Part shown: positions 3,389 to 58,020 of the stretch, piece after piece
Layout of the letters: every line of letters starts with the position of its first letter
Numbering within the stretch: the first letter of the stretch is position 1
The notes under the pieces: model-generated
Told to the model about the DNA's origin: nothing
Database searches by the model: none
Seen by the model: only the letters and a program-made list of their open reading frames with translations
DNA from: Albula goreensis
Taxonomy: Eukaryota; Chordata; Actinopteri; Albuliformes; Albulidae
DNA length: 64,000 nucleotides
Direction: 5' to 3'
Assembly (NCBI GenBank): GCA_022829145.1
Contig: CM040743.1
Span: forward strand, 1,052,501 to 1,116,500
Translations under genes and position numbers: made by a program

Positions 3389-6300
3389 TACTGATTGCAT
3401 TACGCATGTACAGACTGGAAAAAGGTTTGTATCAGGGTATGTTTTACTATAGTATCACTGATGAACAGAGTGTGTATAGATGTGTATCAGGGTGTGTGTT
3501 ACAATAATATTACTGATGTACAGAGTGTGTATAGATGTGTATCAGGGTGTGTGTTACTGTCGTGTCACTGATGTACAGAGTGTGTGTAGATGTGTATCAG
3601 GGTGTGTGTTACTGTCGTGTCACTGATGTACAGAGTGTGTATAGATGTGTATCAGGGTGTGTGTTACTGTAGTATTACTGATGTACAGAGTGTGTATAGA
3701 TGTGTATCAGGGTGTGTGTTACTTTAGTATTACTGATGTAAGAGTGTGTATAGATGTGTATCAGGCTATGTGTTACTATAGTATTACTGATGTACAGAGT
3801 GTGTATAGATGTTTACCAGGGTGTGTTACTGTAGTATTACTGATGTACAGAGTGTGTATCAGGGTGTAGTTTTGGGGTGTTGCCTCAGACTCACCCCGAC
3901 ATTTGATGCAGATGAAGTTGAGCCTCTCAGTCTTGGGCAGACTGACCCACTGTTGCCCCACTCCAGATTCTAGTGCCCCCCTGCGCCCACACTCCCCGGT
4001 CTCATTTCCTGGGGCCCAGTTCTGGTACTGGCCCTCTTCCCCACTGACCCAGAACCAGAAGTGCAGGGCACAGGAGTAGCGCAGGCCCAGCCACACGTGA
4101 GCTGTGGAGGCGCTCTGAGCCCTCCTCTTCACCCAGTGCTGGAGCTGCTCTGTGGACACGGAGACCAGGTCTCCATAGTGCTGTCTGCAGTAGCTCAGGG
4201 CCTCATCCCAGCTCTTATTCTCACCCACCAGGACCAGATTATCTGCAGACAGAGAGGAAGAAGAAAATTAGAGAGAATGAAACTAAAATAAAAAAGACTG
4301 AATCACATGCCTTAAATCTGAGGATCGCAGGTCCTGACTTAAATCAGTTTGTATTCAAAGTTTTATGTGATTACAGAGATAATATCTGGACGCAATCTGT
4401 GTTTAAACTACAGATTGTAACGCTTTCAGTGTCACTTTCTTCCTCCAATTGGCTGAAAGATTCTGTCCTGATGCCCTAACTCTCTCAGCCCCTCCCCCGA
4501 CTGCAGGACATTCCCCGTCAATCATGTGACATCAGCACTGCTCATACAAACTGACCAACCGGTTTAAATCTGGAACAGACTTTACAATCAAACTGGTGCA
4601 GCAGGACACTGATGGACTCACCTTCATAGCAGATGAAAGGGTATGTGTTACTACAGTCCCAATCATTCCACTGGCCCAAGTCTGTAATAAAGTAGGGTTA
4701 GGAGCAGGAGGACACCGACACTCACCTTCATAGCAGATGAAAGGGTATGTGTTACTGCAGTCCTGATCATTCCACTGGCCCAAGTCTGTAATAAAGTAGG
4801 GTTAGGAGCAGGAGGACACCGACACTCACCTTCATAGCAGATGAAAGGGTATGTGTTACTGCAGTCCTGATCATTCCACTGGCCCAAGTCTGTAATAAAG
4901 TAGGGTTAGGAGCAGGAGGACACCGACACTCACCTTCATAGCAGATGAAAGGGTATGTGTTACTGCAGTCCTGATCATTCCACTGGCCCAAGTCTGTAAT
5001 AAAGTAGGGTTAGGAGCAGGAGGACACCGACACTCACCTTCATAGCAGATGAAAGGGTATGTGTTACTACAGTCCTGATCATTCCACTGGCCCAAGTCTG
5101 TAATAAAGTAGGGTTAGGAGCAGGAGGACACCGACACTCACCTTCATAGCAGATGAAAGGGTATGTGTTACTACAGTCCTGATCATTCCACTGGCCCAAG
5201 TCTGTAATAAAGTAGGGTTAGGAGCAGGAGGACACCGACACTCACCTTCATAGCAGATGAAAGGGTATGTGTTACTGCAGTCCTGATCATTCCACTGGCC
5301 CAAGTCTGTAATAAAGTAGGGTTAGGAGCAGGAGGACACCGACACTCACCTTCATAGCAGATGAAAGGGTATGTGTTACTGCAGTCCTGATCATTCCACT
5401 GGCCCAAGTCTGTAATAAAGTAGGGTTAGGAGCAGGAGGACACCGACACTCACCTTCATAGCAGATGAAAGGGTATGTGTTACTGCAGTCCTGATCATTC
5501 CACTGGCCCAAGTCTGTAATAAAGTAGGGTTAGGAGCAGGAGGACACCGACACTCACCTTCATAGCAGATGAAAGGGTATGTGTTACTACAGTCCTGATC
5601 ATTCCACTGACCCAAGTCTGTAATAAAGTAGGGTTAGGAGCAGGAGGACACCACACTCACCTTCATACCAGATGAAAGGGTATGTTTACTACAGTCCTGA
5701 TCATTCCACTGGCCCAAGTCTGTAATAAAGTAGGGTTAGGAGCAGGAGGACACCGACACTCACCTTCATAGCAGATGAAAGGGTATGTGTTACTACAGTC
5801 CTGATCCTTCCATCTCCCTGCATCAGTAGCACTCATTACAGCACAGTTCTCATTCCCTCCAGCATTGTCTGGCTGTCCTAATGTCCAGTTGCGGTATGAG
5901 GAGCTGCTCTGGTCTGACCACTTCCAGGACTCTCTGAACAGGCCGATCCACACCCACTCTCTTGCTCCTCCTGCAGTCTGCTGTATCTCCTGGTTCTCAG
6001 CCTGGTTCCTCACACTGGCCAGGTCTGTGTGATGCTCTCTGCAGTAGCTCTGAGCCTCTCTCCATGTCTTAAGCTGTTTAATCAGGATGTATCTCTGAGC
6101 AGCGTCTCCTGTAAACACACAGCAACTTTAACCTCACAGCTCATCACTCTGCAAGACTCATCAATAAGGATGAATCTCTGATTCCAGGAGTCATGCAGAC
6201 CTGAGTATCCTGTAATGCCATTGGTCCATATTTACTCAACATTTTAGTGGGAGAGAGGATTGTGAACATGCTGGAGAAAGAGTTACAAAAGCACCGTAAC

Positions 6301-7362
6301 ACCACCCGAAAAGATCAGCAAAACTAACCATCCTACTCTCCGAATTAGTCTCTCTGAATCAGACTCCACTGCTGTGTGTCTAATGAGATTAAAGGAGTTA
6401 CTCTCTCTGAATCAGACTCCACTGCTGTGTGTGTAATGAGATAAAAGGAGTTACTCTCTCTGAATCAGACTCCACTGCTGTGTGTGTAATGAGATTAAAG
6501 GAGTTACTCACCATCGTAGCAGATGAAGGGTCTTGATTTGTAATCACAGGAAATATCATTCCAATTCCCATGAGCGTTTACCATTACACAGTAATAATTC
6601 TGTGTGGTCTTGTAATTGTTTGGTTGCCCACTGTCCCAGTTCCTAAACTCAGTCTCTCCTTCACTGTAGAAATCTTTGTCTGCCAGAGACCACAGCCAGC
6701 TTTCGCTGTCATGATACAGTCCTATCCAGACACTTTCATTACAGCCACTGCCTACAACTCCCATCAGCGCCTCCATTTCCTCCCGGTTGTGTATGGTTGC
6801 CAGGTCAGCGTGGTTCTCTCTGCAGTAACTCTGTGCTTCAGTCCAGCTCTTCTGTACATTCACAAAGTGGTACTGATGAGAGAGGCAGGAGCAGAGTGTG
6901 CAGAGTCCTGTGGCACACACACACACACACACACACACAAGGGCACACATGCACACATCTTTCACATATTAACATTTCAATTTTAAACCTTTGAAGTTTA
7001 ATTAGTAATTAGGATGATATAATGATTTTAAGTTCTGCCTGTTTCATCTCTAAACTTCACTGAAGTTCTCAATGAAAATTACTGGATGTGGGGAGAGGGG
7101 ACATTTAAATCATAATCTTATCTTTCTGTTTTGAACAGACATTTGTACCTCGGCTTCAGTTTAGTTGTTTACCTAAACTTGTTTACTTCAATAAAAAATA
7201 TATTCAGTCAGGTGTGTTGAAAACTTTGGTACTGCAAATCATATCAGATACAAAAATACACACAATAACACAGTCACAAATACACACATCAATACATCTA
7301 AAAACATAAAAATTGTTTATCAACTGACCTGAGATCAGCACAATAGTTACGTCTTGCATCAT
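2372..7362 (-). CDS. Gene A: secreted three-CTLD C-type lectin (macrophage mannose receptor-like / CLEC20A-like)
   Basis: Six main exons: 7329-7362 (leader), 6512-6907 (CTLD1), 5764-6108 (CTLD2), 3895-4242 (CTLD3), 3190-3299 and 2372-2506 (tail). All junctions are GT-AG and in frame, giving 455 aa without the micro-exons at 4622-5719. The leader is MMQDVTIVLIS followed by GLCTLCSC. It is weaker than in the paralogs because it has an Asp in the hydrophobic stretch. CTLD1 has WIGL, QPN and WND. CTLD2 has WIGL, QPD and WKD. CTLD3 has WLGL and no Ca2+ motif. N-glycosylation sequons are seen in CTLD1 (NES) and CTLD3 (NET). No membrane segment was found, so a secreted carbohydrate-binding protein is inferred. 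It is an inverted paralog of gene B. Family membership is firm; the ligand is unknown. Confidence 0.85.
2700..2890 (-). repeat. 50-bp minisatellite in gene A last intron
   Basis: Units share GCTAAATGTAACATTAG at 50-bp spacing (near 2745, 2795, 2845). The same family sits in the matching intron of gene B at 26685-27040, in mirror orientation. Confidence 0.8.
3190..3299 (-). CDS. Gene A first tail exon
   Basis: 110 nt, phase 1 to phase 0. It encodes GVCYSVKKKHILQVE then [12 protein letters not shown]. The acceptor GACATTTAG lies directly beside a long (TG)n tract on the sense strand, and the donor is CAG|GTGAGA. The gene B copy is 26304-26413. Confidence 0.85.
3308..3388. repeat. (CA)n microsatellite, about 40 units
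   Basis: Pure CA on plus, hence (TG)n in gene A sense, ending 9 nt before the tail-exon acceptor. Confidence 0.98.
3425..3870 (-). repeat. 55-bp minisatellite, about 8 units
   Basis: This is the gene A copy of the array that follows the CTLD3 donor. Its unit is the reverse complement of the one at 24555-26245. Confidence 0.92.
3895..4242 (-). CDS. Gene A CTLD3 exon
   Basis: 348 nt, phase 1 at both ends, acceptor TCTGTCTGCAG and donor GGG|GTGAGT. It encodes [34 protein letters not shown] and FICIKC. The fold cysteines and the WLGL core are present. The EPN/QPD Ca2+ motif and the WND motif are absent, so sugar binding at the classical site is not expected. Confidence 0.9.
4622..5719 (-). CDS. 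Array of eleven 60-nt CTLD-tail micro-exons
   Basis: On minus, ten micro-exons of exactly 60 nt occupy 5558-5617, 5454-5513, 5350-5409, 5246-5305, 5142-5201, 5038-5097, 4934-4993, 4830-4889, 4726-4785 and 4622-4681. The eleventh, 5661-5719, has 59 nt because one base is lost. Each encodes [20 protein letters not shown], the last beta-strand region of a CTLD including two cysteines, and starts and ends in phase 1. Introns between them are 44 nt with GTGAGT donor, CTAAC branch-like motif and TTATTACAG acceptor. The period is 104 bp and the units are nearly identical. CTLD2 already contains its own tail, so these exons are extra. Whether any is spliced in is unknown; retention of an intron shifts frame and meets a stop. 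Confidence 0.6.
4622..5763 (-). repeat. 104-bp tandem repeat carrying exon plus intron
   Basis: Eleven units of 104 bp (one of 103). The only variation seen is a few single-base changes, such as CTGCAGTCC versus CTACAGTCC. The first unit abuts the CTLD2 donor through a 44-nt intron (5720-5763). Confidence 0.97.
5764..6108 (-). CDS. Gene A CTLD2 exon
   Basis: 345 nt, phase 1 at both ends. It encodes GDAAQRYILIKQLKTW, a WIGLF core, a QPD motif (galactose-type in the CTLD literature), RWKDQDC and PFICYE. It is intact, unlike the gene C and D equivalents. Confidence 0.9.
6341..6505 (-). repeat. 52-bp minisatellite, about 3 units
   Basis: Core TGAATCAGACTCCACTGCTG. It lies directly after the CTLD1 donor of gene A and is the shortest of the four copies of this array. 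Confidence 0.9.
6512..6907 (-). CDS. Gene A CTLD1 exon
   Basis: 396 nt, phase 1 at both ends. It encodes [30 protein letters not shown], a QPN motif, GNWNDISC and PFICYDG. The acceptor CCACAG is preceded by a short (TG)n tract (plus 6914-6938) instead of a pyrimidine tract. Confidence 0.9.
7329..7362 (-). CDS. Gene A leader exon (coding part)
   Basis: ATGATGCAAGAC leads to CTGATCTCAG and the donor GTCAGT. It encodes MMQDVTIVLIS. Position, donor and the conserved LIS end match the leader exons at 19983, 37047 and 47428. An Asp at residue 4 makes the signal peptide atypical. Confidence 0.75.
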
Positions 7363-12742: not shown

Positions 12743-13830
12743 AGTCTCATCCCAGTAAATTTCTAGCTTCCCTCCTGGATCCACTGGACCTCTGGGCTCA
12801 GAACCAGATCTGTCATCTTTACTGAAGTTTGAGTCTCACCTGTGTAGAAACTCACACCAGTGACTAAAGCTTTTCATATCCATTCACAGGTAAAGGGGTT
12901 CAAAATGTATCAAACAAAATTAAATCTGCATTCAAGAGTATTTTGTGTAGAGTAGCATGTACAGTGACACTAAGCAGTTTGGCACTGCACAGTCTCACCA
13001 GGTAACTGTACCTGTGACCCCTTATCTGCAAACCCACAAACATGTGCTGTCAGGCATGTTTTCTCACTGTTTCAAAAATGAGATGTCCATGGGGGAGTGG
13101 TAAAGAAAAGATCAGACTTTAATTACTGTGCAGTAGACTGTAGCTACCTTTAACATGTGTCACATTATCAGCGTAAAGCTAGGCACCTGCATAGTGAAGT
13201 GTCCCCACCGCTAGGAAGCTAATCTTTGCTATTGAACAAATGCATTTAAGCCATTAAGCCACTTGCGAGTGTGAGCTGAATGTTGTGACTTCATTTCCAT
13301 GATATCTGCTGTAACCTCGATGTGCATAGACAAACCTGTTCTTTACCTCCTCAATGTGCATAGACAAACCTGTTCTTTTCTCCTCAATGTGCATAGACAA
13401 ACCTGTTCTTTTCTCCTCGATGTGCATAAACAAACCTGTTCTTTACCTCCTCAATGTGCATAGACAAACCTGTTCTTTACCTCCTCGATGTGCATAGACA
13501 AACCTGTTCTTTACCTCCTCAATGTGCATAGACAAACCTGTTCTTTACCTCCTCAATGTGCATAGACAAACCTGTTCTTTACCTCCTCGATGTGCATAGA
13601 CAAACCTGTTCTTTACCTCCTCGATGTGCATAGACAAACCTGTTCTTTACCTCCTCGATGTGCATAGACAAACCTGTTCTTTATCTCCTCGATGTGCATA
13701 GACAAACCTGTTCTTTACCTCCTCGATGTGCATAGACAAACCTGTTCTTTACCTTCACATATTAACACAACTTTCCTGCTGCACTGATATGGTTAACTTG
13801 AGGAAATAAAGATTTTCTGCCTTAAACTGT
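12743..13830 (+). other. Gene E candidate 3'-terminal exon/UTR
   Basis: Direct-repeat copy of 465-1350, collinear for more than 1 kb including the 34-bp array and the 68-bp units beyond it. The acceptor is TTGCTCTCCAAG. The AATAAA is at 13805-13810. Confidence 0.5.
13317..13752 (+). repeat. 34-bp minisatellite, about 13 units
   Basis: Same unit as 1037-1277 at about twice the copy number, inside the paralogous 3' region. Confidence 0.95.
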
Positions 13831-18275: not shown

Positions 18276-19820
18276 CCAGGGCTGGGTTAGGGTTAGGGGG
18301 GTTAGGGTTGGGTCTAGGGCTAGGTTATGAAAAATCTTTTTTTCCAAAGTTCCCCTTGTGAGGGCCCCTTGGGAAAGAAAAGTTTGCACTGGCCATTCAG
18401 TGTACTGGAGCCTTTGAGTAGGAAGAATTTGGTCCCTCTTGTGTTGAATTTTAAGTGTGTTTGTTTAATCCACCCGGGAACATGGTGTTGAGTTTCAAAA
18501 TCCAGGATTTTTCCACTCTCCGTCTGTCCCCTGGTGTCCAGTTTATATTTGCTTCCAGGCCCGATGTTTGTAATGCGTTCTGCCTGCTGTCTGCATCTGG
18601 GAACTCCTCAGGAATTGCCACTGTGTGGGTTAGGGTTCGCTGTGTGGGTTAGTGTTAGGGTTTGCTGTGTGGGTTAGGGTTAGGGTTTTACTGTGTGGGT
18701 TAGGGTTAGGGTTCTCTGTGTGGGTTAGGGTTAGGGTTCTCTGTGTGGGTTAGGGTTAGGGTTCACTGTGTGGGTTAGGGTTAGGGTTTGCTGTGTGGGT
18801 TAGGTTAGGGTTCACTGTGTGGGTTAGGGTTAGGGTTCACTGTGTGGGTTAGGGTTAGGGTTAGGGTTCACTGTGTGGGTTAGGGATAGGGTTAGGGTTC
18901 ACTGTGGGTTAGGGTTAGGGTTCACTGTGTGAGTTAGGGTTAGGGTTCTCTGTGTGGGTTAGGGTTAGGGTTCGCTGTGTGGGTTAGGGTTAGGGTTCTG
19001 TGTGGGGTTAGTGTTAGGGTTAGGGTTCACTGTGTGGGTTAGGGTAGGGTTCGCTGTGTGGGTTAGGGTTAGGGTTCACTGTGTGGGTTAGGGATAGGGT
19101 TCGCTGTGTGGGTTAGTGTTAGGGTTCACTGTGTGGGTTAGGGATTTCGCTGTGTGGGTTAGTGTTAGGGTTTGCTGTGTGGGTTAGTGTTAGGGTTTGC
19201 TGTGTGGGTTAGGGTTAGGGTTCGCTGTGTGGGTTAGGTTAGGGTTCGCTGTGTGGGTTAGGGTTAGGGTTCGCTGTGTGGGTTAGTGTTAGGGTTCGCT
19301 GTGTGGGTTAGGGTTAGGGTTTGCTGTGTGGGTTAGTGTTAGGGTTCGCTGTGTGGGTTAGAGTTAGGGTTTACTGTGTGAGTTAGGGTAGGGTTCGCTG
19401 TGTGGGTTAGGGTTAGAGTTCGTTGTGTGGGTTAGGGTTAGGGTTCGCTGTGTGGGTTAGGGTTAGGTTTGCTGTGTGGATTAGAGTTCGCTGTGTGGGT
19501 TAGGGTTAGGGTTTGCTGTGTGGGTTAGGGTTAGTTCGCTGTGTGGGTTAGGTTAGGGTTCAGTTCGTGTGGGTTAGGGTTAGGTTTGCTGTGTGGGTTA
19601 GGGTTAGGGTTCACTGTGTGGGTTAGGGTTCCGGTTCGCTGTGTGGGTTAGGGTTAGGGTTCACTGTGTGGGTTAGGGTTAGGGTTGTGTGGGTTAGGGT
19701 TTGCCGTGTGGGTTAGGGTTAGGGTTAGGGTTTGCTGTGTGGGTTAGGGTTAGGGTTTGCTCTGTGGGTTAGGGTTTGCTGTGTGGGTTAGGGTTAGGGT
19801 TTGCTGTGTGGGTTAGGGTT
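18276..19820 (+). repeat. Telomere-like TTAGGG minisatellite, about 60 units
   Basis: A unit of about 26 bp: two or three TTAGGG hexamers plus a TTCGCTGTGTGGG spacer. It fills most of the gene B first intron on the sense strand. The sequence is degenerate and interrupted, so it is an interstitial satellite and not a chromosome end. Confidence 0.93.
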
Positions 19821-20433: not shown

Positions 20434-23400
20434 CTGCAGGGCTCTGCTTTTGCCTCTGTAATCAATATCACTTTGTGAACATAGGGAAGAGCTGGACTGA
20501 AGCACAGAGTTACTGTAGAGAAAACTATGACGACCTGACCACCATATACGACCAACAGGAAATGGAGGCACTGATGGGAGTTGTAGGCAGTGGCTATGAG
20601 GGAGAGGCCTGGATAGGACTGAAGACTGAAGACACCTGGAAGTGGCGGTGGTCTCTGGCAGAAAGAGGATTCCACAGTGAGGGAGAGACTGAGTTTAGGA
20701 ACTGGGCCGGTGTGGAACCAAATGATTATCTAGGCATAGAGGACTGTGTGGAAATGTATAACACTGGACTATGGAATGATCTTCCCTGTGAGATGAGAAT
20801 TGCACAGTTTATCTGCTACGATGGTGAGAACTCCTGCCTGTTTATATCTCAATACACATGACAGTGGAGTCTGATTCAGAGAGAGTAACTCCTTTATCTC
20901 ATTACACACATAGCAGTGGAGTCTGATTCAGAGAGAGTAACTCCTTTATCTCATTACACACACAGCAGTGGAGTCTGATTCAGAGAGAGTAACTCCTTTA
21001 TCTCATTACACACACAGCAGTGGAGTCTGATTCAGAGAGAGTAACTCCTTTATCTCATTACACACACAGCAGTGGAGTCTGATTCAGAGAGAGTAACTCC
21101 TTTATCTCATTACACACACAGCAGTGGAGTCTGATTCAGAGAGAGTAACTCCTTTATCTCATTACACACACAGCAGTGGAGTCTGATTCGGAGAGAGCAA
21201 CTCCTTTATCTCATTACACACACAGCAGTGGAGTCGGATTCAGAGAGAGTAACTCCTTTATCTCATTACACACACAGCAGTGGAGTCTGATTCGAGAGAG
21301 CAACTCCTTTATCTCATTACACACAGCAGTGGAGTTTCAGAGAGAGTAACTCATCTCATCACACACAGCAGTGGAGTCTGATTCAGAGAGAGTAATATCA
21401 TTACACACACAGGAGTCTGATTCAGAGAGAGTAATATGGATGGATGGCTAGTTCTGCTGAGCTTTTTGGGTGGTGTTGTGGTGCTTCTGTTACTCTTTCT
21501 CCAGCATGTTTACAATCCTCTCACCCACTAAAATGTTGATTAAATATGGACCAATGGCATTACAGGATACTTAGGTCTGCATGACTCCTGGAATCAGAGA
21601 TTCATCCTTATTGATGAGTCTTGCAGAGTGATGACCTGTAAGGTTAAAGTTGCTGTGTCTTTACAGGAGATGCTGTTCAGAGATACATCCTGATTACAGA
21701 GCTTAAGACTTGGAGAGAGGCTCAGAGCTACTGCAGAGAGCATCACACAGACCTGGCCAGTGTGAGGAACCAGGCAGAGAACCAGGAGGTCATGGGAATG
21801 ATTGATTCAAACATTGATGGACGTGGGGCATGGATCGGCCTGTTCAGAAATCTCTGGAAGTGGTCAGACCAGAGCAGCTCCTCATACCCCTACTGGAGAT
21901 CAGGACAACCAGACAATGCTGAAGGGACTGAGAACTGTGCTGTAGTGAGTACTACTGATGCAGGGAGATGGAAGGATCTGGACTGTAATGAGGCGAAACC
22001 TTTCATCTGCTATGAAGGTGAGTGTTGGTGTCCTCCTGCTCCTAACCCTACTTTATTACAGACTTGGGCCAGTGGAATGATCAGGACTGTAGTAACACAT
22101 ACCCTTTCATCTGCTATGAAGGTGAGTTTTCCTGCTCCTAACCCTACTTTATTACAGACTTGTGTCCTCCTGCTCCTAACCCTACTTTATTACAGACTTG
22201 GGCCAGTGGAATGATTGAGTGTCGGTGTCCTCCTGCTCCTAACCCTACTTTATTACAGACTGTAATAACACATACCCTTTCATCTGCTATGAAGGTGAGT
22301 GTCGCTATGAAGGTGTCCTCCTGCTCCTAACCCTACTTTATTACAGACTTGGGCCAGTGGAATGATCAGGACTGTAGTAACACATACCCTTTCATCTGTC
22401 CTCCTGCTCCTAACCCTATGAAGGTGAGTGTTGCTATGTGTCCTCCTGCTCCTAACCCTACTTTATTACAGACTTGGGCCAGTGGAATGATCAGGACTGT
22501 AGTAACACATACCCTTTCATCTGCTATGAAGGTGAGTGTCGGTGTCCTCCTGCTCCTAACCCTACTTTATTACAGACTTGGGCCAGTGGAATGATCAGGA
22601 CTGTAGTAACACATACCCTTTCATCTGCTATGAAGGTGAGTCCATCAGTGTCCTGCTGCACCAGACAGGCAGTATCACTGCCTGATAGGGGAACTGCTCT
22701 GCCCGTGACCGCGGCGCCCTGCAAAGAGTGGTACGTTCAGCTGAACACACCACCAGAATACCCTTTCCCTCCCTGCAGGACACCTACACCAGGTGGGTGA
22801 GGATGAGAGCCCAAAACATACTGAGAGACACTTCACATTGTTCACTGATCAGACTGCCGAGGTCAGGCAGACGCCTCTGCAGTCGCATGGCCAAAACTGA
22901 AAGACTGAAGAGGAGTTTCTTTCCTCAGGCCATCTGGATCCTCAACACTCACTCTTCACTTTAACAAACTTCCACATATCTGAACACTTTGCAATACTGC
23001 ATATTGTCTGTTTGTTCTGCACTGCCACCTCACTGGCACACCAGGTCACTTTAACTGTAAATACTGATAGTTTTGGTAAAATTGTATGTATATTGTATAT
23101 TATTTGTATATATATTAGCACAAGCAATTGTATTTATTTTGCACGAGTAATTTTATTTATTTTTATTTGACTCCTTTTATCTCATGTTCTAATTCCCTTC
23201 ATTTCATTTTTTATTTGAGCATGTGACAAATAAAGAACCTTGATCTCATGTTCTCACAGAGGGATCATCAGGAGCTCTGAACATCCCTGTCATTTCATTG
23301 CATGTTTTACAGAGGGAAAAGTTGTGCCTCTGAGGGATCAGTGACAAATCTGCAAAGAACCTTCTGCACAGAGGGAACAGGAGCTCTGCACAGAGGGATC

Positions 23401-27641: not shown

Positions 27642-28977
27642 GAAAAAATGAGATCTGAAACAAAAACTGAAATATCTGATCTATTAGATAAGAAATGTAA
27701 AATTGCAGTTTTCGTACAGACCGCATCTGTATTTGTTCTGTGAAAATTGTGTAAAAATAGGCCCCTCTTGCTGTGTAAATGCAAACCTTGAGTTCATTTC
27801 ACCAGCAATTTAATCAGGATTACTGTGAGTCTTGTCAGTTCCTGAAAATATTTTCTTTTCAGTGACCTGCTGTCTTTGGCTTCTTTTGTGCAGTTATTGT
27901 GGGTGAAGACAGGGTGTAGCAAGTTACATGAATAAAAAAACAGACAAAATCTTCCACCTTTATTCTGAGATTCTGTGTAGGAATTGAAGCCTGATCTGGA
28001 CAGTTTACTTTGCACGCATGTCACCCCTGCCACCTTTGTAAAACAAACAAATCAAACAACATGTCTTTGAAACAGCACAAAATATGATTGTTTTCAAAGG
28101 CAAATTATTGTAGAGGATCTTAAGTATATAAAAGGCCGAGTTAATTCTGACTGAGTGATGAATTAATCCAGCCATGGTTTGGACACGTTTCTGCACACAT
28201 CTCTGCACGTCTCTGCATGTCTCTGCACATGTTTCTGTACACGCCTCTGCAATGATTGGGTGTATTCTGTGGTTTGCCGTATGTACTGACGAAAGATCAG
28301 CACAAAATGGAAGACTAAGCCTTCATGTGATAAGAATACACTCAGTTAACATGTTGTTAATCATTTTTTTTTTTTTCTTGCAGGAGGGAGGGGCAGGTTT
28401 GTGAGTGTGTAGGCCTGTATAAGTTATAAGCACAGATATTAGAGCTTAAAACTCAAGTATCTGCATAGTTCATAAGCACAGATATTGCTATTATGCCGGG
28501 GACCAATTCCATTGTGTATTAAAAGCAAAACAAATGTATCCTAGACGTAAAAACATCAAACACAGTCAGATCATTTTTAACATGGTCACCACATTCCAGA
28601 AGTCATTTCGGGGTAAGTATTGTGTCTCCCCAAAACTCTGACTGAGTCCAGCCAATGAAAAGGACATCAGGGTGCTGTTGACTCCACCCATGATGCACCT
28701 CTGGTTTCCTTTAAAGTTTCCTGGTCCTGTATTTTGTGTGGGGTTTGTGCATCCTAGTAATATGTTACAGCGCTGGTTCATTAGCATGACTGAATCAATG
28801 TGCCACACCCACTCAAACAGCTGTTTATGTCGATGTGAGAGAAAGCGTTCCAGGAACAAAGGTGGACATAACATAAATTATGAATCATAAATGAATAAAA
28901 TATGTCTATATGATTATCATTTTTAAATTGTTACAAAACATAGATGATCAGGGATGATTTCACATTGAAACCGAAAT
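27642..28977. other. Intergenic; no gene recognised
   Basis: Mostly unique. About 27855-27935 is similar to 40095-40175 (TTTTCAGTGACCTGCT and a nearby ATGAATAAA). A short TCTGCACGTC-type imperfect repeat lies at 28185-28250. Confidence 0.4.
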
Positions 28978-31900
28978 GACAGAATGGGGCTGAGAGTGTG
29001 AAGGGCAGCAGGGTGTGACAGAATGGGGCTGAGAGTGTGAAAGGGCAGCAGGGTGTGACAGAATGGGGCTGAGAGTGTGAAAGGGCAGCAGGGTGTGACA
29101 GAATGGGGCTGAGAGTGTGAAAGGGCAGCGGGGTGTGACAGAATGGGGCTGAGATGTGAAAGGGCAGCAGGGTGTGACAGAATGGGGCTGAGAGTGTGAA
29201 AGGGCAGCAGGGTGTGACAGAATGGGGCTGAGAGTGTGAAAGGGCAGCAGGGTGTGACAGAATGGGGCTGAGAGTGTGAAAGGGCAGCAGGGTGTGACAG
29301 AATGGGGCTGAGAGAGACAGAATGGGGCTGAGAGTGTGAAAGGGCAGCAGGGTGTGACAGAATGGGGCTGAGAGAGTGAAAGGGCAGCAGGGTGTGACAG
29401 AATGGGGCTGAGAGTGTGAAGGGCAGCAGGGTGTGACAGAATGGGGCTGAGAGTGTGAAAGGGCAGCAGCAGAATGGTGTGACAGAATGGGGCTGAGAGT
29501 GAAAGGGCAGCAGGGTGTGACAGAATGGGGCTGAGAGTGAGGGCAGCAGGGTGTGAAAGGGCAGCAGGGTGTGACAGAATGGGGCTGAGAGTGTGTGAAA
29601 GGGCAGCAGGGTGTGACAGAATGGGGCTGAGAGTGTGAAGGGCAGCAGGGTGTGACAGAATGGGGCTGAGAGTGTGAAGGGCAGCAGGGTGTGACAGAAT
29701 GGGGCTGAGAGTGTGAAGGGCAGCAGGGTGTGACAGAATGGGGCTGAGAGTGTGAAAGGGCAGCAGGGTGTGACAGAATGGGGCTGAGAGTGTGAAAGGG
29801 CAGCAGGGTGTGACAGAATGGGGCTGAGAGTGTGAAGGGCAGCAGGGTGTGACAGAATGGGGCTGAGAGTGTGAAGGGCAGCAGGGTGTGACAGAATGGG
29901 GCTGAGAGTGTGAAAGGGCAGCAGGGTGTGACAGAATGGGGCTGAGAGTGTGAAGGGCAGCAGGGTGTGACAGAATGGGGCTGAGAGTGTGAAAGGGCAG
30001 CAGGGTGTGACAGAATGGGGCTGAGAGTGTGAAAGGCAGCAGGGTGTGACAGAATGGGGCTGAGAGTGTGAAAGGGCAGCAGGGTGTGACAGAATGGGGC
30101 TGAGAGTGGGAATGGGGCTGAGAGTGTGAAAGGGCAGCAGGGTGTGACAGAATGGGGCTGAGAGTGTGAAAGGGCAGCAGGGTGTGACAGAATGGGGCTG
30201 AGAGTGTGAAAGGGCAGCAGGGTGTGACAGAATGGGGCTGAGAGGGTGAAGGGCAGCAGGGTGTGACAGAATGGGGCTGAGAGTGTGAAAGGGCAGCAGG
30301 GTGTGACAGAATGGGGCTGAGAGTGAAAGGGCAGCAGGGTGTGACAGAATGGGGCTGAGAGTGTGAAGGGCAGCAGGGTGTGACAGAATGGGGCTGAGAG
30401 TGTGAAAGGGCAGCAGGGTGTGACAGAATGGGGCTGAGAGTGTGAAAGGGCAGCAGGGTGTGACAGAATGGGGCTGAGAGTGTGAAAGGGCAGCAGGGTG
30501 TGACAGAATGGGAGAGTGTGAAAGGGCAGCAGGGTGTGACAGAATGGGGCTGAGAGGGAAGGGCAGCAGGGTGTGACAGAATGGGGCTGAGAGTGTGAAG
30601 GGCAGCAGGGTGTGACAGAATGGGGCTGAGAGTGAAAGGGCAGCAGGGTGTGACAGAATGGGGCTGAGAGTGTGAAGGGCAGCAGGGTGTGACAGAATGG
30701 GGCTGAGAGTGTGAAGGGCAGCAGGGTGTGACAGAATGGGGCTGAGAGTGTGAAAGGGCAGCAGGGTGTGACAGAATGGGGCTGAGAGTGTGAAAGGGCA
30801 GCAGGGTGTGACAGAATGGGGCTGAGAGTGTGAAAGGGCAGCAGGTGTGACAGAATGGGGCTGAGAGTGTGAATGGGGCTGAGAGTGTGACAGAATGGGG
30901 CTGAGAGCAAGGGCAGCAGGGTGTGACAGAATGGGGCTGAGAGTGTGAAAGGGCAGCAGGGTGTGACAGAATGGGGCTGAGAGTGTGAAAGGGCAGCAGG
31001 GTGTGACAGAATGGGGCTGAGAGTGTGAAAGGGCAGCAGGGTGTGACAGAATGGGGCTGAGAGTGTGAAAGGGCAGCAGGGTGTGACAGAATGGGGCTGA
31101 GAGTGTGAAAGGGCAGCAGGGTGTGACAGAATGGGGCTGAGAGGCAGCAGGGTGTGACAGAATGGGGCTGAGATAGTGAAAGGGCAGCAGGGTGTGACAG
31201 AATGGGGCTGAGAGTGAAGGGCAGCAGGGTGTGACAGAATGGGGCTGAGAGTGTGAAGGGCAGCAGGGTGTGGGGCTGACAGAATGGGGCTGAGAGTGTG
31301 AAAGGGCAGCAGGTGTGACAGAATGGGGCTGAGAGTGTGAAAGGGCAGCAGGGTGTGACAGAATGGGGCTGAGAGTGTGAAGGGCAGCAGGGTGTGACAG
31401 AATGGGGCTGAGAGTGTGAAGGGCAGCAGGGTGTGACAGAATGGGGCTGAGAGTGTGAAAGGGCAGCAGGGTGTGACAGAATGGGGCTGAGAGAAAGGGC
31501 AGCAGGGTGTGACAGAATGGGGCTGAGAGTGTGAAAGGGCAGCAGGGTGTGACAGAATGGGGCTGAGAGTGTGAAGGGCAGCAGGGTGTGACAGAATGGG
31601 GCTGAGAGTGTGAAAGGGCAGCAGGGTGTGACAGAATGGGGCTGAGAGTGTGAAAGGGCAGCAGGGTGTGACAGAATGGGGCTGAGAGTGTGAAAGGGCA
31701 GCAGGGTGTGACAGAATGGGGCTGAGAGTGTGAAAGGGCAGCAGGGTGTGACAGAATGGGGCTGAGAGTGTGAAAGGGCAGCAGGGTGTGACAGAATGGG
31801 GCTGAGAGTGTGAAAGGGCAGCAGGGTGTGACAGAATGGGGCTGAGAGTGTGAAGGGCAGCAGGGTGTGACAGAATGGGGCTGAGAGTGTGAAGGGCAGC

Positions 31901-32323
31901 AGGGTGTGACAGAATGGGGCTGAGAGTGTGAAAGGGCAGCAGGGTGTGACAGAATGGGGCTGAGAGTGTGAAAGGGCAGCAGGGGGTGTGACAGAATGGG
32001 GCTGAGAGTGTGAAAGGGCAGCAGGGTGTGACAGAATGGGGCTGAGAGCGTGAAAGGGCAGCAGGGTGTGACAGAATGGGGCTGAGAGTGTGAAAGGGCA
32101 GCAGGGTGTGACAGAATGGGGCTGAGAGTGTGAAAGGGCAGCAGGGTGTGACAGAATGGGGCTGAGAGTGTGAAGGGCAGCAGGGTGTGACAGAATGGGG
32201 CTGAGAGTGTGTGAAGAATGGGGCAGCAGGTGTGACAGAATGGGGCTGAGAGTGTGAAAGGGCAGCAGGGTGTGACAGAATGGGGCTGAGAGTGTGAAGG
32301 GCAGCAGGGTGTGACAGAATGGG
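28978..32323 (-). repeat. 40-bp satellite, about 84 units
   Basis: Units of 40 or 39 bp with core GGGCTGAGAGTGTGAAAGGG. The unit has no stop codon in any minus frame, so two overlapping ORFs of over 1100 codons arise (28923-32348 and 28931-32332). They have no start context, domain or splice logic and are not accepted as genes. It separates genes B and C. Confidence 0.98.
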
Positions 32324-32639
32324 GCTTTTCACACGGGGAAGGAGTCACAGGTCACACAGAAACACCCAGTGGGATAATTACCTCATTCCCACTCAATAAA
32401 ATCATTCTACATCATTATTATTTAGTAAATGCATAACAGACACAAACTAAAAATGTTTAGTAGAGATTAATCTAAAGACACACTTCCTTCTCCAAGTACA
32501 GAGCACCCAAAAACATGGAGGGTAACGGTCTGTTTTAACCCAGGGGGCTAAAAAATGGGAGTGTAACCCATTAATATTTAAACTATATATTATTAAAATG
32601 CATGGACAGGGTTTACTTTGCATTCTGAAATAAGATGTG

Positions 32640-33726: not shown

Positions 33727-36700
33727 CTGCAGAGAGAGGAAGCAGACAGGCAAAAAACAAAATAAAAGGATACATTGCATCTATCTTATCAGCATTATTT
33801 AAGACTCTTGTGTCATTTTGATTTTCAGGTCCTTTTAGTTCTTTATGAAGCTCTCAATGGCTCAACACTTTCTCTCTGTACCAGCACAGGCCCTTAGCCT
33901 TCTCTCTGTACCAGCACAGGCCCTTAGCCTTCTCTCTGTACCAGCACAGGCCCTTAGCCTTCTCTCTGTACCAGCACAGGCTCTTAGCCTTCTCTCTGTA
34001 CCAGCACAGGCCCTTAGCCTTCTCTCTGTACCAGCACAGGCCCTTAGCCTTCTCTCTGTACCAGCACAGGCCCTTAGACTTCTCTCTGTACCAGCACAGG
34101 CCCTTAGCCTTCTCTCTGTACCAGCACAGGCCCTTAGCCTTCTCTCTGTACCAGCACAGGCCCTTAGCCTTCTCTCTGTACCAGCACAGGCCCTTAGCCT
34201 TCTCTCTGTACCAGCACAGGCTCTTCGCCTTCTCTCTGTACCAGCACAGGCTCTTAGCCTTCTCTCTGTACCAGCACAGGCCCTTAGCCTTCTCTCTGAC
34301 CCCACTGCCCAGATCTGCTCGAGGACCCAAAGGAAATACACATAAAGAGGTGGGAAACGACCTCCTGGTTTTATGCACCAAAAGTGTGGAACGCTTATCT
34401 CAAGAGTATGAGTGAGAAAGGCTCAGATGCTATTTTAAAAAGCAGTTTCCATACCACTTCACAGTTATTATTATTATTATTATTATTATTATAGAGTGTT
34501 TTTCCCCAGCTCCTGGGTTGTAATTGTTCCACTCATAAAGTCTGGAGCAGCAGGTGGCAGATGGACTCACCTCCATAGCAGATGAAATTCTGTTTCTCAT
34601 CACAGCGTCTGTCATTCCATTTCCCTGAGTGTCCAAACCGCACTTCAGCACAGCCCTCATTCCCTCCTGCATTGTTGGGTTCTTCTGATCTCCAGTTGTG
34701 GTATGAGGAGTTGCTCTGGTCTGACCACTTCCAGGACTCTCTGAACAGGCCGATCCACACCCACCCTCCTGTTCCTCCTGCAGTCTGCTTATCTGCTGGT
34801 TCTCAGCCTGGTTCCTCACACTGGCCAGGTCTGTGTGATGCTCTCTGCAGTAGCTCTGAGCCTCTCTCCAAGTCATCTTCTCTTCAATCAGGATGTATCT
34901 CTGAGCAGGGTCTCCTGCAAACACAAAGCAGCTTTTGTTTTTTTCTGCCTGTTTGTGACCAAATGAGCAGCATCCCTTCAGATTTCAGAAAATACCTTGT
35001 TTTGCCAGAAATGTTTTTTTGCCATTTCACATGTGAAAAGGTTCCCTGAATTAAACATGAGATCACATGACCTCACATGTGCTCTTGTTTCCCTGTGTGA
35101 AAACTTCACCTCTCAGACACTGAATTTCACATGTGATTTCTGGGAAGCAGCAATATTGAAGACATAATCAAGTTAGAGTTACTCTCTCTGAATCAGACTC
35201 CACTGCTGTGTGTGTAATGAGATAAAGGAGTTACTCTCTCTGAATCAGACTCCACTGCTGTGTGTGTAATGAGATAAAGGTTACTCTCTCTGAATCAGAC
35301 TCCACTGCTGTGTGTGTAATGAGATAAAGGAGTTACTCTCTCTGAATCAGACTCCACTGCTGTGTGTGTAATGAGATAAAGGAGTTACTCTCTCTGAATC
35401 AGACTCCACTGCTGTGTGTGTAATGAGATAAAGGAGTTACTCTCTCTGAATCAGACTCCACTGCTGTGTGTAATGAGATAAAGGAGTTACTCTCTCTGAA
35501 TCAGACTCCACTGCTGTGTGTGTGATGAGATAAAGGAGTTACTCTCTCTGAATCAGACTCCACTGCTGTGTGTGTAATGAGATAAAGGAGTTACTCTCTC
35601 TGAATCAGACTCCACTGCTGTGTGTGTAATGAGATAAAGGAGTTACTCTCTCTGAATCAGACTCCACTGCTGTGTGTGTAATGAGATAAAGGAGTTACTC
35701 TCTCTGAATCAGACTCCACTGCTGTGTGTGTAATGAGATAAAGGAGTTACTCTCTCTGAATCAGACTTCACTGCTGTGTGTGTAATGAGATAAAGGAGTT
35801 ACTCTCTCTGAATCAGACTCCACTGCTGTGTGTGTAATGAGATAAAGGAGTTACTCTCTCTGAATCAGACTCCACTGCTGTGTGTGTAATGAGATAAAGG
35901 AGTTACTCTCTCTGAATCAGACTCCACTGCTGTGTGTGTAATGAGATAAAGGAGTTACTCTCTCTGAATCAGACTCCACTGCTGTGTGTGTAATGAGATA
36001 AAGGAGTTACTCTCTCTGAATCAGACTCCACTGCTGTGTGTGTAATGAGATAAAGGAGTTACTCTCTCTGAATCAGACTCCACTGCTGTGTGTATAATGA
36101 GATAAAGGAGTTACTCTCTCTGAATCAGACTCCACTGCTGTGTGTGTAATGAGATAAAGGAGTTACTCTCTCTGAATCAGACTCCACTGCTGTGTGTGTA
36201 ATGAGATAAAGGAGTTACTCTCTCTGAATCAGACTCCACTGCTGTGTTTGTAATGAGATAAAGGAGTTACTCTCTCTGAATCAGACTCCACTGCTGTGTG
36301 TGTAATGAGATATAAACAGACAGGAGTTCTCACCATCGTAGCAGATGAAGGGTCCTTTTCTGTCACAGGAAGCATCATCCCATTTCCCATTAGTTCTCAT
36401 TGCTACACAGTGCTCTATGCTTTTTTTATTGTCTGGTTGCCCACTGGCCCAGTTCCTAAACTCAGTCTGTCCCTCACTGTAGAAATCTCTGTCTGCCAGA
36501 GACCACTGCCAGCTATCCCTGTCATCATACAGTCCTATCCAGGCTTTTCCATTATAAACGCTGCCTACAACTCCCATCAGCGCCTCCATTTCCTCCTGGT
36601 TGTCTATGGTTGCCAGGTCAGCGTAGTTCTCTCTGCAGTAACTCTGTGCTTCAGTCCAGCTCTTCTGTATGTTCAGAAAGTGGTACTGATGAGAGAGGCA

Positions 36701-43165: not shown

Positions 43166-43511
43166 CATCATAGCAGATGAAAGGGTGGCTGTTACTACAG
43201 TTTTGATCTCCCCATCTTCCATCATGTTTAACCCACATTACAACGCAGTTCTCTTCTCCTTTCTATTGTTGGGTTGTCCTGATCTCCAGTAGCGGTATGA
43301 GGAGTTGCTCTGGTCTGACCACTTCCAGGACTCTCTGAACAGGCCGATCCACAGCCATGCTGTTTGTTCTGCATCCCTGTCTGCTTTATCTCCTGGTTCT
43401 CAGTCTGGTTCCTCACACTGGCCAGGTCTGTGTGATGCTCTCTGCAGTAGCTCTGAGCCTCTCTCCAAGTCATCTGCTTTTTAATCAGGATGTATCTCTG
43501 AGCAGAGTCTT
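43166..43511 (-). pseudogene. Gene D CTLD2 exon, two frameshifts
   Basis: It opens with QRYILIKKQMTW and [17 protein letters not shown]. The WLWIGLF, QPNN and RWGDQNC parts are in other frames. Acceptor TTTCCAG and donor GTGAGT are kept. Confidence 0.75.
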
Positions 43512-56457: not shown

Positions 56458-58020
56458 TAAGAACATAAGAACATAAGAGCATATTATGACGAGGACAGGC
56501 CATTCAGCCCAACAAAGCTCACCATTACATTATTTAAAGAGTATCCAAAACTGCATCAAGTCTGGACTTGAAAACAGCAAGGGTCTCTGCCTCAACTACA
56601 TGACCTGGGAACCCATTCCATGTATTGATCACTCTTTGTGTAAAATAATACTTCCTTACATCAGTGCAGAACTTACTCTTAACTAGTTTCCATTTATGTT
56701 CCCTTGTCCTACAGACTGAACTCACCTTAAAAAATGTATTGTAGTTAACCTTGTTGAGTCCTTTTATAAATTAAAAAACTTCTATTAAATCACCCCTTAG
56801 TCTCTTGCTGGGTCTAAATAGGTTAAGTAACTTAGTTAACTTAGTTAAGTAAGTCTTTCCTCTTAGCTTTTATATTTCATGCCAGGAACTAATTTAGTTG
56901 CCCTCCTTTGTACTTTTTCAAGAGCCTCGATATCTTTCTTATAGTGCAGTGCCCAGATCTGCACACAGTATTTCAAGTGGGGTCTGACTAAAGCATTGTA
57001 TAATTTTAATATAACCTCCTTAGATCAATACTTATAATCAATACTTTTGGCTATATACCCCAGCATCCTGTTGGCCTTTTTACTGCTACGGCACACTGCC
57101 TAGATCCTGTTAAGATTGGGTCAACTATTACTCCCAAGTCTTTTTTCATATTGAGCACATTCTAGTTTACTTCCTCCCATGAAGTAGTCTTGTCTAAAGT
57201 TCTTATTTCCCACATGCAAGACTAAATTGAATGTCATCTGCCAGGCATCCGCCCACATATGGATGCTGTTTAGGTCTTCTTGTATTACCTTAGTTGATTC
57301 TATACTGTTGGCTAGACCCCCTAGTTTTGTGTCATCTGCAAATTTGACTATTTTACTACTAACCCCTGCATCAAGATTGTTTATGTATTTAAGGAATAGC
57401 AAAGGCCCCAACACCGATCCCTGTGGGACTCCACTTCTCACAGGACCCTGTTCTGAAACAATTCCTCCAACAGTTACACTCTGCTTTCTACCAGTCAGCC
57501 AACTTTGAACCAACTCAGTGATAGCTCCTGATATTCCTGCAGATTTCATTTTCACTTTGAGCCTCTCATGTGATACTTTGTCAAATGCCTTTTGTAAGTC
57601 TAAATAGATAAAGTCATAAGCTTGGTTTGCATCTAAACATGCTGTAGCTTCCTCAAAAAAGTCCAGGAGGTTTGTTAAGCATGACCTCCGTCTGTGAAAA
57701 CCATGCTGTCTATCGTTTAAGATACCATTTTGTTCAAGGAATAATTCCAAATTGTCCCTAATGATGGATTCCAGTAATTTACAAGTGATACAAGTTAAGC
57801 TCACAGGCCTATAATTTCCTGGATCAGTCCGGTCTCCTTTCTTGTAGATAGGTACTATACTGCCTAGCTTCCATTCATCTGGTATTTCTCCAGTTTTAAG
57901 AGATTGCTTAAATATAATTGTCGGGCTCGTAGACCACTTCCGCTAGTTCCCTGAGAACTCTTGGATATATTCCATCGGGGCCTGCTGCCTTATATGTTTT
58001 AAGTTTTTGAAGTTTATCTA
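56458..58020 (-). mobile_element. CR1/L2-clade LINE, 5'-truncated and decayed
   Basis: The minus strand encodes the 3' part of a reverse transcriptase: YLDLQKAFDKVSHERL, GVPQGSVLGPLLF and the catalytic FADD box followed by TKLGG (57121-57804). After several breaks comes the usual C-terminal segment (RKYYFTQRVINTWNGFPG, LAVFKSRLDAVLDTL, 56534-56725). It ends at 56458 with a short ACATAAGA repeat. There is no endonuclease or ORF1, and stops lie between the two open parts, so it is inactive. Confidence 0.85.

Follow-up and report, generated by a model that had tools for sequence, protein, structure and literature searches.

Architecture of the gene A locus

The window analyzed here, a 64,000-nt stretch of the Albula goreensis genome (C3:1052501-1116500), harbors on its minus strand a lectin gene (gene A) whose three CTLD exons all matched Lectin_C in a Pfam search: CTLD1 at 6512..6907 (-), CTLD2 at 5764..6108 (-) and CTLD3 at 3895..4242 (-). 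CTLD2 is an open reading frame that scores 81.7 bits and has both an acceptor and a donor. Gene models were examined for gene A and a second gene, gene B, at their CTLD exons, and the five CTLD exons of the two genes score 48-82 bits against a cut-off of 22.6 (PF00059).

The 3′ end of CTLD2 carries an array of 11 units at 4622..5763 (-), its first intron included, in which a unit comprises a 60-nt exon and a 44-nt intron. TRF placed the repeat at 4616-5812 with a period of 104, 11.5 copies, 98% matches and a score of 2303, and this period, together with a parse of the minus strand, confirmed a first-pass annotation that had described complete 104-bp exon-plus-intron cassettes in the correct phase. 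The copies lie head to tail and their number differs between related loci, as in a tandem repeat or minisatellite. Units 2-11 each contain a 60-nt open exon running from phase 1 to phase 1; unit 2, the first in frame, lies at 5558..5617 (-), and the others follow every 104 bp up to unit 11 at 4622..4681 (-), which adjoins the ordinary intron gtgagtccatcagtg and is therefore the positional counterpart of the original CTLD2 tail. Unit 1 (5661..5719 (-)) keeps its donor, branch motif and acceptor; its exon (59 nt) and the intron that follows (43 nt, 5618-5660) are each 1 nt short, which shifts the frame. The introns that precede unit 1 and that separate units 2 to 11 from one another all measure 44 nt, and unit 11 leads into an ordinary long intron. 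The annotated tally of ten units in eleven with signals and frame preserved was thus correct, as was the content ascribed to each unit: 20 residues with two cysteines and a WND motif.

Translated joins revealed that the frame into CTLD3, which has a strong acceptor and would be the splice target of a skipped array, is kept if the array is skipped or if units 2-11 are taken, and that inclusion of unit 1 alone or of all 11 units runs into a stop shortly after the frame has entered CTLD3. The earlier proposal that any number of units could be added without breaking the frame therefore holds for units 2-11 and fails at unit 1, the first acceptor met; because unit 1 is frame-broken, inclusion of every unit would be out of frame. 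Units 2-11 allow 144 in-frame combinations if joins between adjacent units are barred and 1024 without that limit. By itself the frame match is weak evidence, because the micro-exon mostly inherited CTLD2 coding sequence (see below) and its acceptor would fit phase 1 with a prior chance of about 1/3.

Splice signals and intron length

The donor GAAG/GTGAGT (slash, exon boundary) is identical at the end of gene A CTLD2 and in 11/11 units, and all 11 unit acceptors read CTAAC...TTATTACAG with the exon boundary CAG/AC. CTAAC occurs in 11/11 introns preceding the units, with its A 16 nt from the intron end; 27 nt separate the donor from the branch, and 14 nt lie between the branch-like A and the AG. 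Scored with generic splice-site frequencies, the donor of the unit ties with that of CTLD2 itself, at the 99.6th percentile of 9047 GT sites. Its acceptor scores 4.66, which places it at the 97.7th percentile of 9464 AG sites; the real acceptors of CTLD1, CTLD2 and CTLD3 score 2.15, 3.11 and 8.57. Since 203 AG sites that lie outside the arrays reach or exceed 4.66, the unit acceptor alone is unremarkable.

The first-pass annotation had singled out the intron of about 44 nt as an obstacle, and at 43-44 nt the introns are indeed shorter than vertebrates usually splice and fall under the teleost minimal-intron peak of 76 bp (PMC9438311). They also fall within the 43-65-nt class of human introns reported to be spliced, in which a 56-nt HNRNPH1 intron has the same donor-to-branch distance of 27 nt; the likeness to these SPF45/RBM17-dependent ultrashort introns, which includes a short pyrimidine tract, is one of signals (PMC8363638). 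Skipping one unit yields an intron of ~148 nt, an ordinary size, and joins between non-adjacent units need that length or longer.

Each unit boundary may serve in a second way. As an acceptor, AAG/GTGAGT scores 2.0 on the same frequencies, against 2.15 for the CTLD1 acceptor, and TAGTAAC is present, with 26 nt of exon tail between its branch-like A and AAG/GTGAGT. Because every such boundary scores as an acceptor, has its TAGTAAC and so resembles a dual-specific site, the array could possibly be removed stepwise, as at sites of that kind (PMC10809524).

Paralogous loci and copy number

Two DNA searches of the whole genome (932 Mb, 208 contigs), one with an array-type and one with a single-copy-type unit, returned the same ten CTLD2 loci; unit-bearing loci number at least ten, as the searches score best candidates only. 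One unit is present at each of five loci (L013-L017), two on C7, two on C8 and one on C24. The multi-unit loci found lie within 103 kb (C3:972440-1075162) and carry 3 (L009), 5 (L010), 4 (L011), 11 (gene A) and 7 (gene B) units, so that the annotated variability in copy number stands between paralogues (1, 1, 1, 1, 1, 3, 4, 5, 7, 11). Across these ten loci, 30/35 units are intact, with a 60-nt open exon, a GT donor and an AG acceptor: 10/11 in gene A, 3/7 in gene B and 17/17 at the other eight. The non-intact units are unit 1 of gene A and units 2-5 of gene B. A 32-mer gave no match in viral_contigs, and a 20-mer none in genome_contigs.

In gene B, the CTLD2 exon (21667..22017 (+), a Pfam Lectin_C match) is followed by its seven units at 22018..22635 (+), of which 1, 6 and 7 are intact, 2 and 3 are without a donor, 4 measures 36 nt and is in frame, and 5 measures 77 nt and is frame-shifted. 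Short templated rearrangements resembling microhomology template switching are visible among these units at 22122-22471 (+), where CTATGAAG has been copied into an intron, a piece of intron has been copied into an exon, and a deletion lies between GACT repeats.

At the single-copy loci, acceptors score from -1.3 to 2.69, the unit donor is GTGGGT in 4/5, and CTAAC is absent from all five. Given these weak acceptors and the missing CTAAC, a usable micro-exon at these loci is doubtful. A GTGAGT inside CTLD2, a possible cryptic donor, occurs in nine of the ten unit-bearing loci found (at 21945 (+) in gene B and at the same place in L009-L011 and L013-L017; not in gene A) and is in phase 0 in 9/9, with the frame-shifted L014 counted from the 3′ end. 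Replacement of the tail through this internal donor was considered and rejected, because a phase-0 donor joined to a phase-1 micro-exon puts the product out of frame.

Several related copies show lost frames. At the single-copy locus L014 (C8:40.457 Mb), a 1-nt deletion frame-shifts CTLD2, perhaps marking a pseudogene or an assembly error. Within the window, two further paralogues, C and D, have frame-shifted CTLD2 exons without an array (34571-34916 and 43166-43511, minus strand), and the CTLD3 of paralogue D, near 42.7 kb, seemingly has lost its frame too.

Origin of the unit

At an unduplicated paralogue, L012 (C3:1034k), the CTLD2 exon is ordinary: ...TTTCAGACTTGGGCCAGTGG continues through it uninterrupted, with the start of the micro-exon in frame. 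When L012 was aligned with the single-copy loci, the gap comprised the duplicated tail and the short intron except for that intron's last bases, and the downstream intron of L012 corresponded to the intron that follows the unit at the single-copy loci. Unit 5 of L010 is identical to the L012 tail (60/60), and L020-L023 carry GCAGACT at the corresponding coding place, in the contexts GCAGACTTAGGG (L023) and GCAGACTCAGGG (L020-L022). Together, these comparisons indicate at the sequence level that the micro-exon is CTLD2 coding tail, and that the acceptor CAG/AC consists, at least in its last bases, of former codons.

The unit intron opens with bases that match the start of the ordinary intron. 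The putative new intron is flanked by duplicated sequence and, by the alignment gap, is absent from the unduplicated L012, with a polarity that we infer; L012 could instead be a product rather than an ancestral relic. For the central part of the unit intron (about CTAACCCTACTTTATT), prefix-only alignments to three CTLD2 exons did not outscore shuffles; reading by eye from L012 suggests a coding origin here as well, which settles the source in part only.

L012 and the ten loci, which share one junction, support at the sequence level an origin in which a tandem duplication reaching from the 3′ end of the CTLD2 exon into the start of its intron would have produced an extra exon tail that carried a donor of its own. 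Within former coding sequence, a cryptic acceptor (...CAG/AC..., codons S/A/T then D) would then have delimited a presumptive 43-44-nt intron and a 60-nt, phase-1/phase-1 micro-exon. A source of the unit in the CTLD2 tail of gene A itself (98% identity over 49 nt) was considered and dropped, since a different tail type is common to eight other loci, and gene A and L010 look overwritten.

Amplification and probable exchange between genes

Tandem arrays with a period of at least 7 cover 37% of the window at 41 merged places, and amplification of the unit therefore fits the region. The three intact unit exons of gene B (180 nt) and one gene B intron equal the gene A consensus exactly, while divergence between the two genes is 6% in the intron preceding CTLD2, 10% within CTLD2 itself and 6% within CTLD3, pointing to exchange between the genes after their duplication.

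A similar transfer appears to have reached coding sequence. In a tree of the CTLD2 body, gene B and L010 are sisters with support of 100/100; the tree held 24/28 rows, leaving out L025-L027 and L029, whose exon end is off pattern and which carry no unit. Across the exon, 352 nt with its leading G, B and L010 differ at 11 positions. Of these, 7 fall within the final 35 nt, and L010 carries the unit base at each of the 7 (binomial P 2e-5, for a 35-nt window picked after seeing the data). Since the other tail type is common to B, L009, L011 and the single-copy loci, the coding tail of L010 CTLD2 has probably been overwritten by unit sequence. The CTLD2 tail of gene A (49 nt) shows 7-9 differences from five relatives and 1 from the unit, which, seen alongside the B/L010 comparison, suggests that it too was probably overwritten.

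We propose that the single-copy state, found at five loci on three contigs, was amplified to the observed 3-11 copies in one 103-kb stretch of C3, and that the route would have been minisatellite-type unequal exchange combined with exchange between genes. The same exchange would have replaced the CTLD2 coding tail with unit sequence at L010 and probably in gene A.

Selection on the units

Among the five single-copy units (10 pairs), exons show pS 0.158 and pN 0.048 (pN/pS about 0.3), compared to divergences of 0.067 in the unit intron and 0.038 in the downstream intron; for the 60-nt tail of CTLD2 itself, at the same loci, pS is 0.055 and pN 0.016. Variable columns number 8/60 in the unit exon, 7/44 in the unit intron and 9 in the first 100 nt of the downstream intron, and over these five loci, with low power, the unit exon evolves no more slowly than the introns. 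No stop arose in at least 20 substitutions over 30 units (P about 0.25 under neutrality), and changes among gene A units are too few for a usable dN/dS. The 17/17 intact units outside genes A and B, together with a pN/pS of about 0.3, hint at some constraint; overall, the selection tests on these sequences do not reject neutrality, and they establish neither it nor purifying selection.

Competing readings of the array

The account that we favor, with moderate confidence, is that the CTLD2 tail was duplicated with its donor, amplified, is mostly spliced out and perhaps sometimes included, and in places appears to overwrite coding tails. By default, splicing would link CTLD2 directly with CTLD3 and discard the entire array along with the intron, in one step or several. 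A minority of transcripts might carry a single in-frame unit or a few non-adjacent ones, with 20 residues gained per unit. Expansion would be tolerated because a skipped unit is invisible and an included one is in frame. Set beside this account, the first-pass observation was right and under-stated, and its interpretation is partly supported, about half of it surviving: beyond what it claimed lie the presence of the unit at ten or more CTLD2 loci, its source in the CTLD2 coding tail and the apparent overwriting of coding tails.

It is unlikely that the array is a functional tail of variable length, in which a varying number of micro-exons is stochastically included as in UBC and selected for the altered CTLD2. 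The intact 60-nt, phase-1-to-1 state of 30/35 units would suit such a tail, as would array splice signals that score level with those of neighboring real exons, the spliced human introns of 43-65 nt with the HNRNPH1 branch spacing seen here (PMC8363638), and the contrast between WKD in the CTLD2 tail at 9/10 loci and WND in 31/33 units with a parsed donor. Yet the unit exons at single-copy loci are about as variable as introns, the lack of stops has a P of about 0.25 under neutrality, 4/7 units in gene B and unit 1 of gene A are damaged, and single-copy acceptors are weak and without CTAAC; moreover, an appended half-domain would presumably add two partnerless cysteines.

Improbable, in our judgment, is a purely intronic minisatellite whose units are never exons, have no effect on mRNA or coding sequence, and owe their exon likeness merely to inheritance. 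Minisatellites are indeed abundant in the window, with further ones in the introns of these genes, the substitution pattern is compatible with neutrality, the CTLD3 acceptor is far stronger than that of the unit, and 44 nt is less than the teleost peak (PMC9438311). Intact array units nonetheless have a consensus donor and an acceptor above two real ones, one-unit skipping restores introns of ordinary size, and the match of the L010 tail to unit sequence means that the array seems to affect coding sequence.

A more ambitious extension, which we consider speculative and quite improbable, would make the array a two-level tail diversifier of immune-type lectins, combining an isoform ladder that varies in its number of non-adjacent 20-residue tails with a germline reservoir of cassettes that re-tails CTLD2 by unequal exchange. 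If so, a WKD tail could potentially become a WND type and, with the QPD motif present in CTLD2, complete a calcium/sugar site.

Finally, it is very improbable that CTLD2 ancestrally ended in a separate tail exon and that L012 and L018-L024 lost the intron: single-copy loci do resemble CTLD2 plus one short intron and one exon, but the part of CTLD2 that precedes the 44-nt intron already forms a full CTLD, both C-terminal cysteines included (in gene A, Pfam profile positions 2-106 of 107), making the micro-exon a second tail, and the micro-exon is absent from 14/24 CTLD2 exons in the tree.

Relation to known systems

The favored account, a duplicated and amplified tail, has close relatives among kinds already known, namely UBC/VCX3A, piccolo b and intron gain by tandem duplication (ATP2A1). 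UBC and VCX3A are human tandem arrays of dual-specific splice sites, and as reported they share with the array head-to-tail AG/GT units, a frame kept on loss or gain of units, fast copy-number evolution, and the proposal that expansion is tolerated as removable by splicing (PMC10809524). UBC is described as having 228-nt coding units without an intron of their own and splicing shown by RT-PCR (PMC10809524), whereas the 104-bp unit here pairs a putative exon with a putative 44-nt intron that has an acceptor distinct from the donor site. As in UBC, an AG/GT with donor and acceptor potential lies at every boundary, AAG/GTGAGT occurring in CTLD2 and in 11/11 gene A units; the 104-bp repeat unit, however, is not divisible by 3, only its 60-nt exon part being so.

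In teleost piccolo b, a zinc-finger exon is amplified to 8-16 copies, with the zebrafish structure backed by cDNA/RNA-seq, and unequal crossover has been proposed (PMC3484663). Both cases thus involve tandem amplification of one exon of a fish gene; piccolo b, as reported, multiplies a whole exon within its introns, whereas here an exon tail may have become an exon. Intron gain by tandem duplication has been reported for ATP2A1 (Hellsten 2011, as cited in PMC4974935) and for potato RdRp (PMC4974935), where, as here, duplication across or near an exon-intron border would yield a new intron from duplicated sequence. Rogers' model, as outlined there, conserves the peptide (PMC4974935); here an extra micro-exon would result, repeated up to 11 times.

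A literature search judged on titles and the openings of abstracts found no lectin of this kind, and within the literature searched the combination with ultrashort introns and a staged paralogue series in one genome seems new. Apparent stages of exon birth coexist in this genome: an unduplicated tail at L012, a single duplicated tail at five loci, small and large arrays at five more, a decaying array in gene B and an apparently overwritten coding tail at L010. Such a series makes both exon/intron birth by tandem duplication and the splicing of very short vertebrate introns directly testable in one species.

Other repeats in the window

Telomere-like GGGTTA-type repeats mixed with GGGTTCGCTGTGT units occupy 1.2 kb at 18627-19820, ~1.07 Mb into contig C3. 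A 3.3-kb minisatellite at 28977-32326, with a period of ~40 bp, is open for >1100 codons in all three minus-strand frames, and a 34-bp minisatellite is shared by 1038-1275 and 13315-13754, which are ~96-97% alike including part of the flank. Two segments resemble reverse-transcriptase retroelements: 22780-22965, in the CTLD2-CTLD3 intron of gene B, looks like the 3′ end of such an element, and 57121-57942 holds a reverse-transcriptase-like frame of 273 codons.
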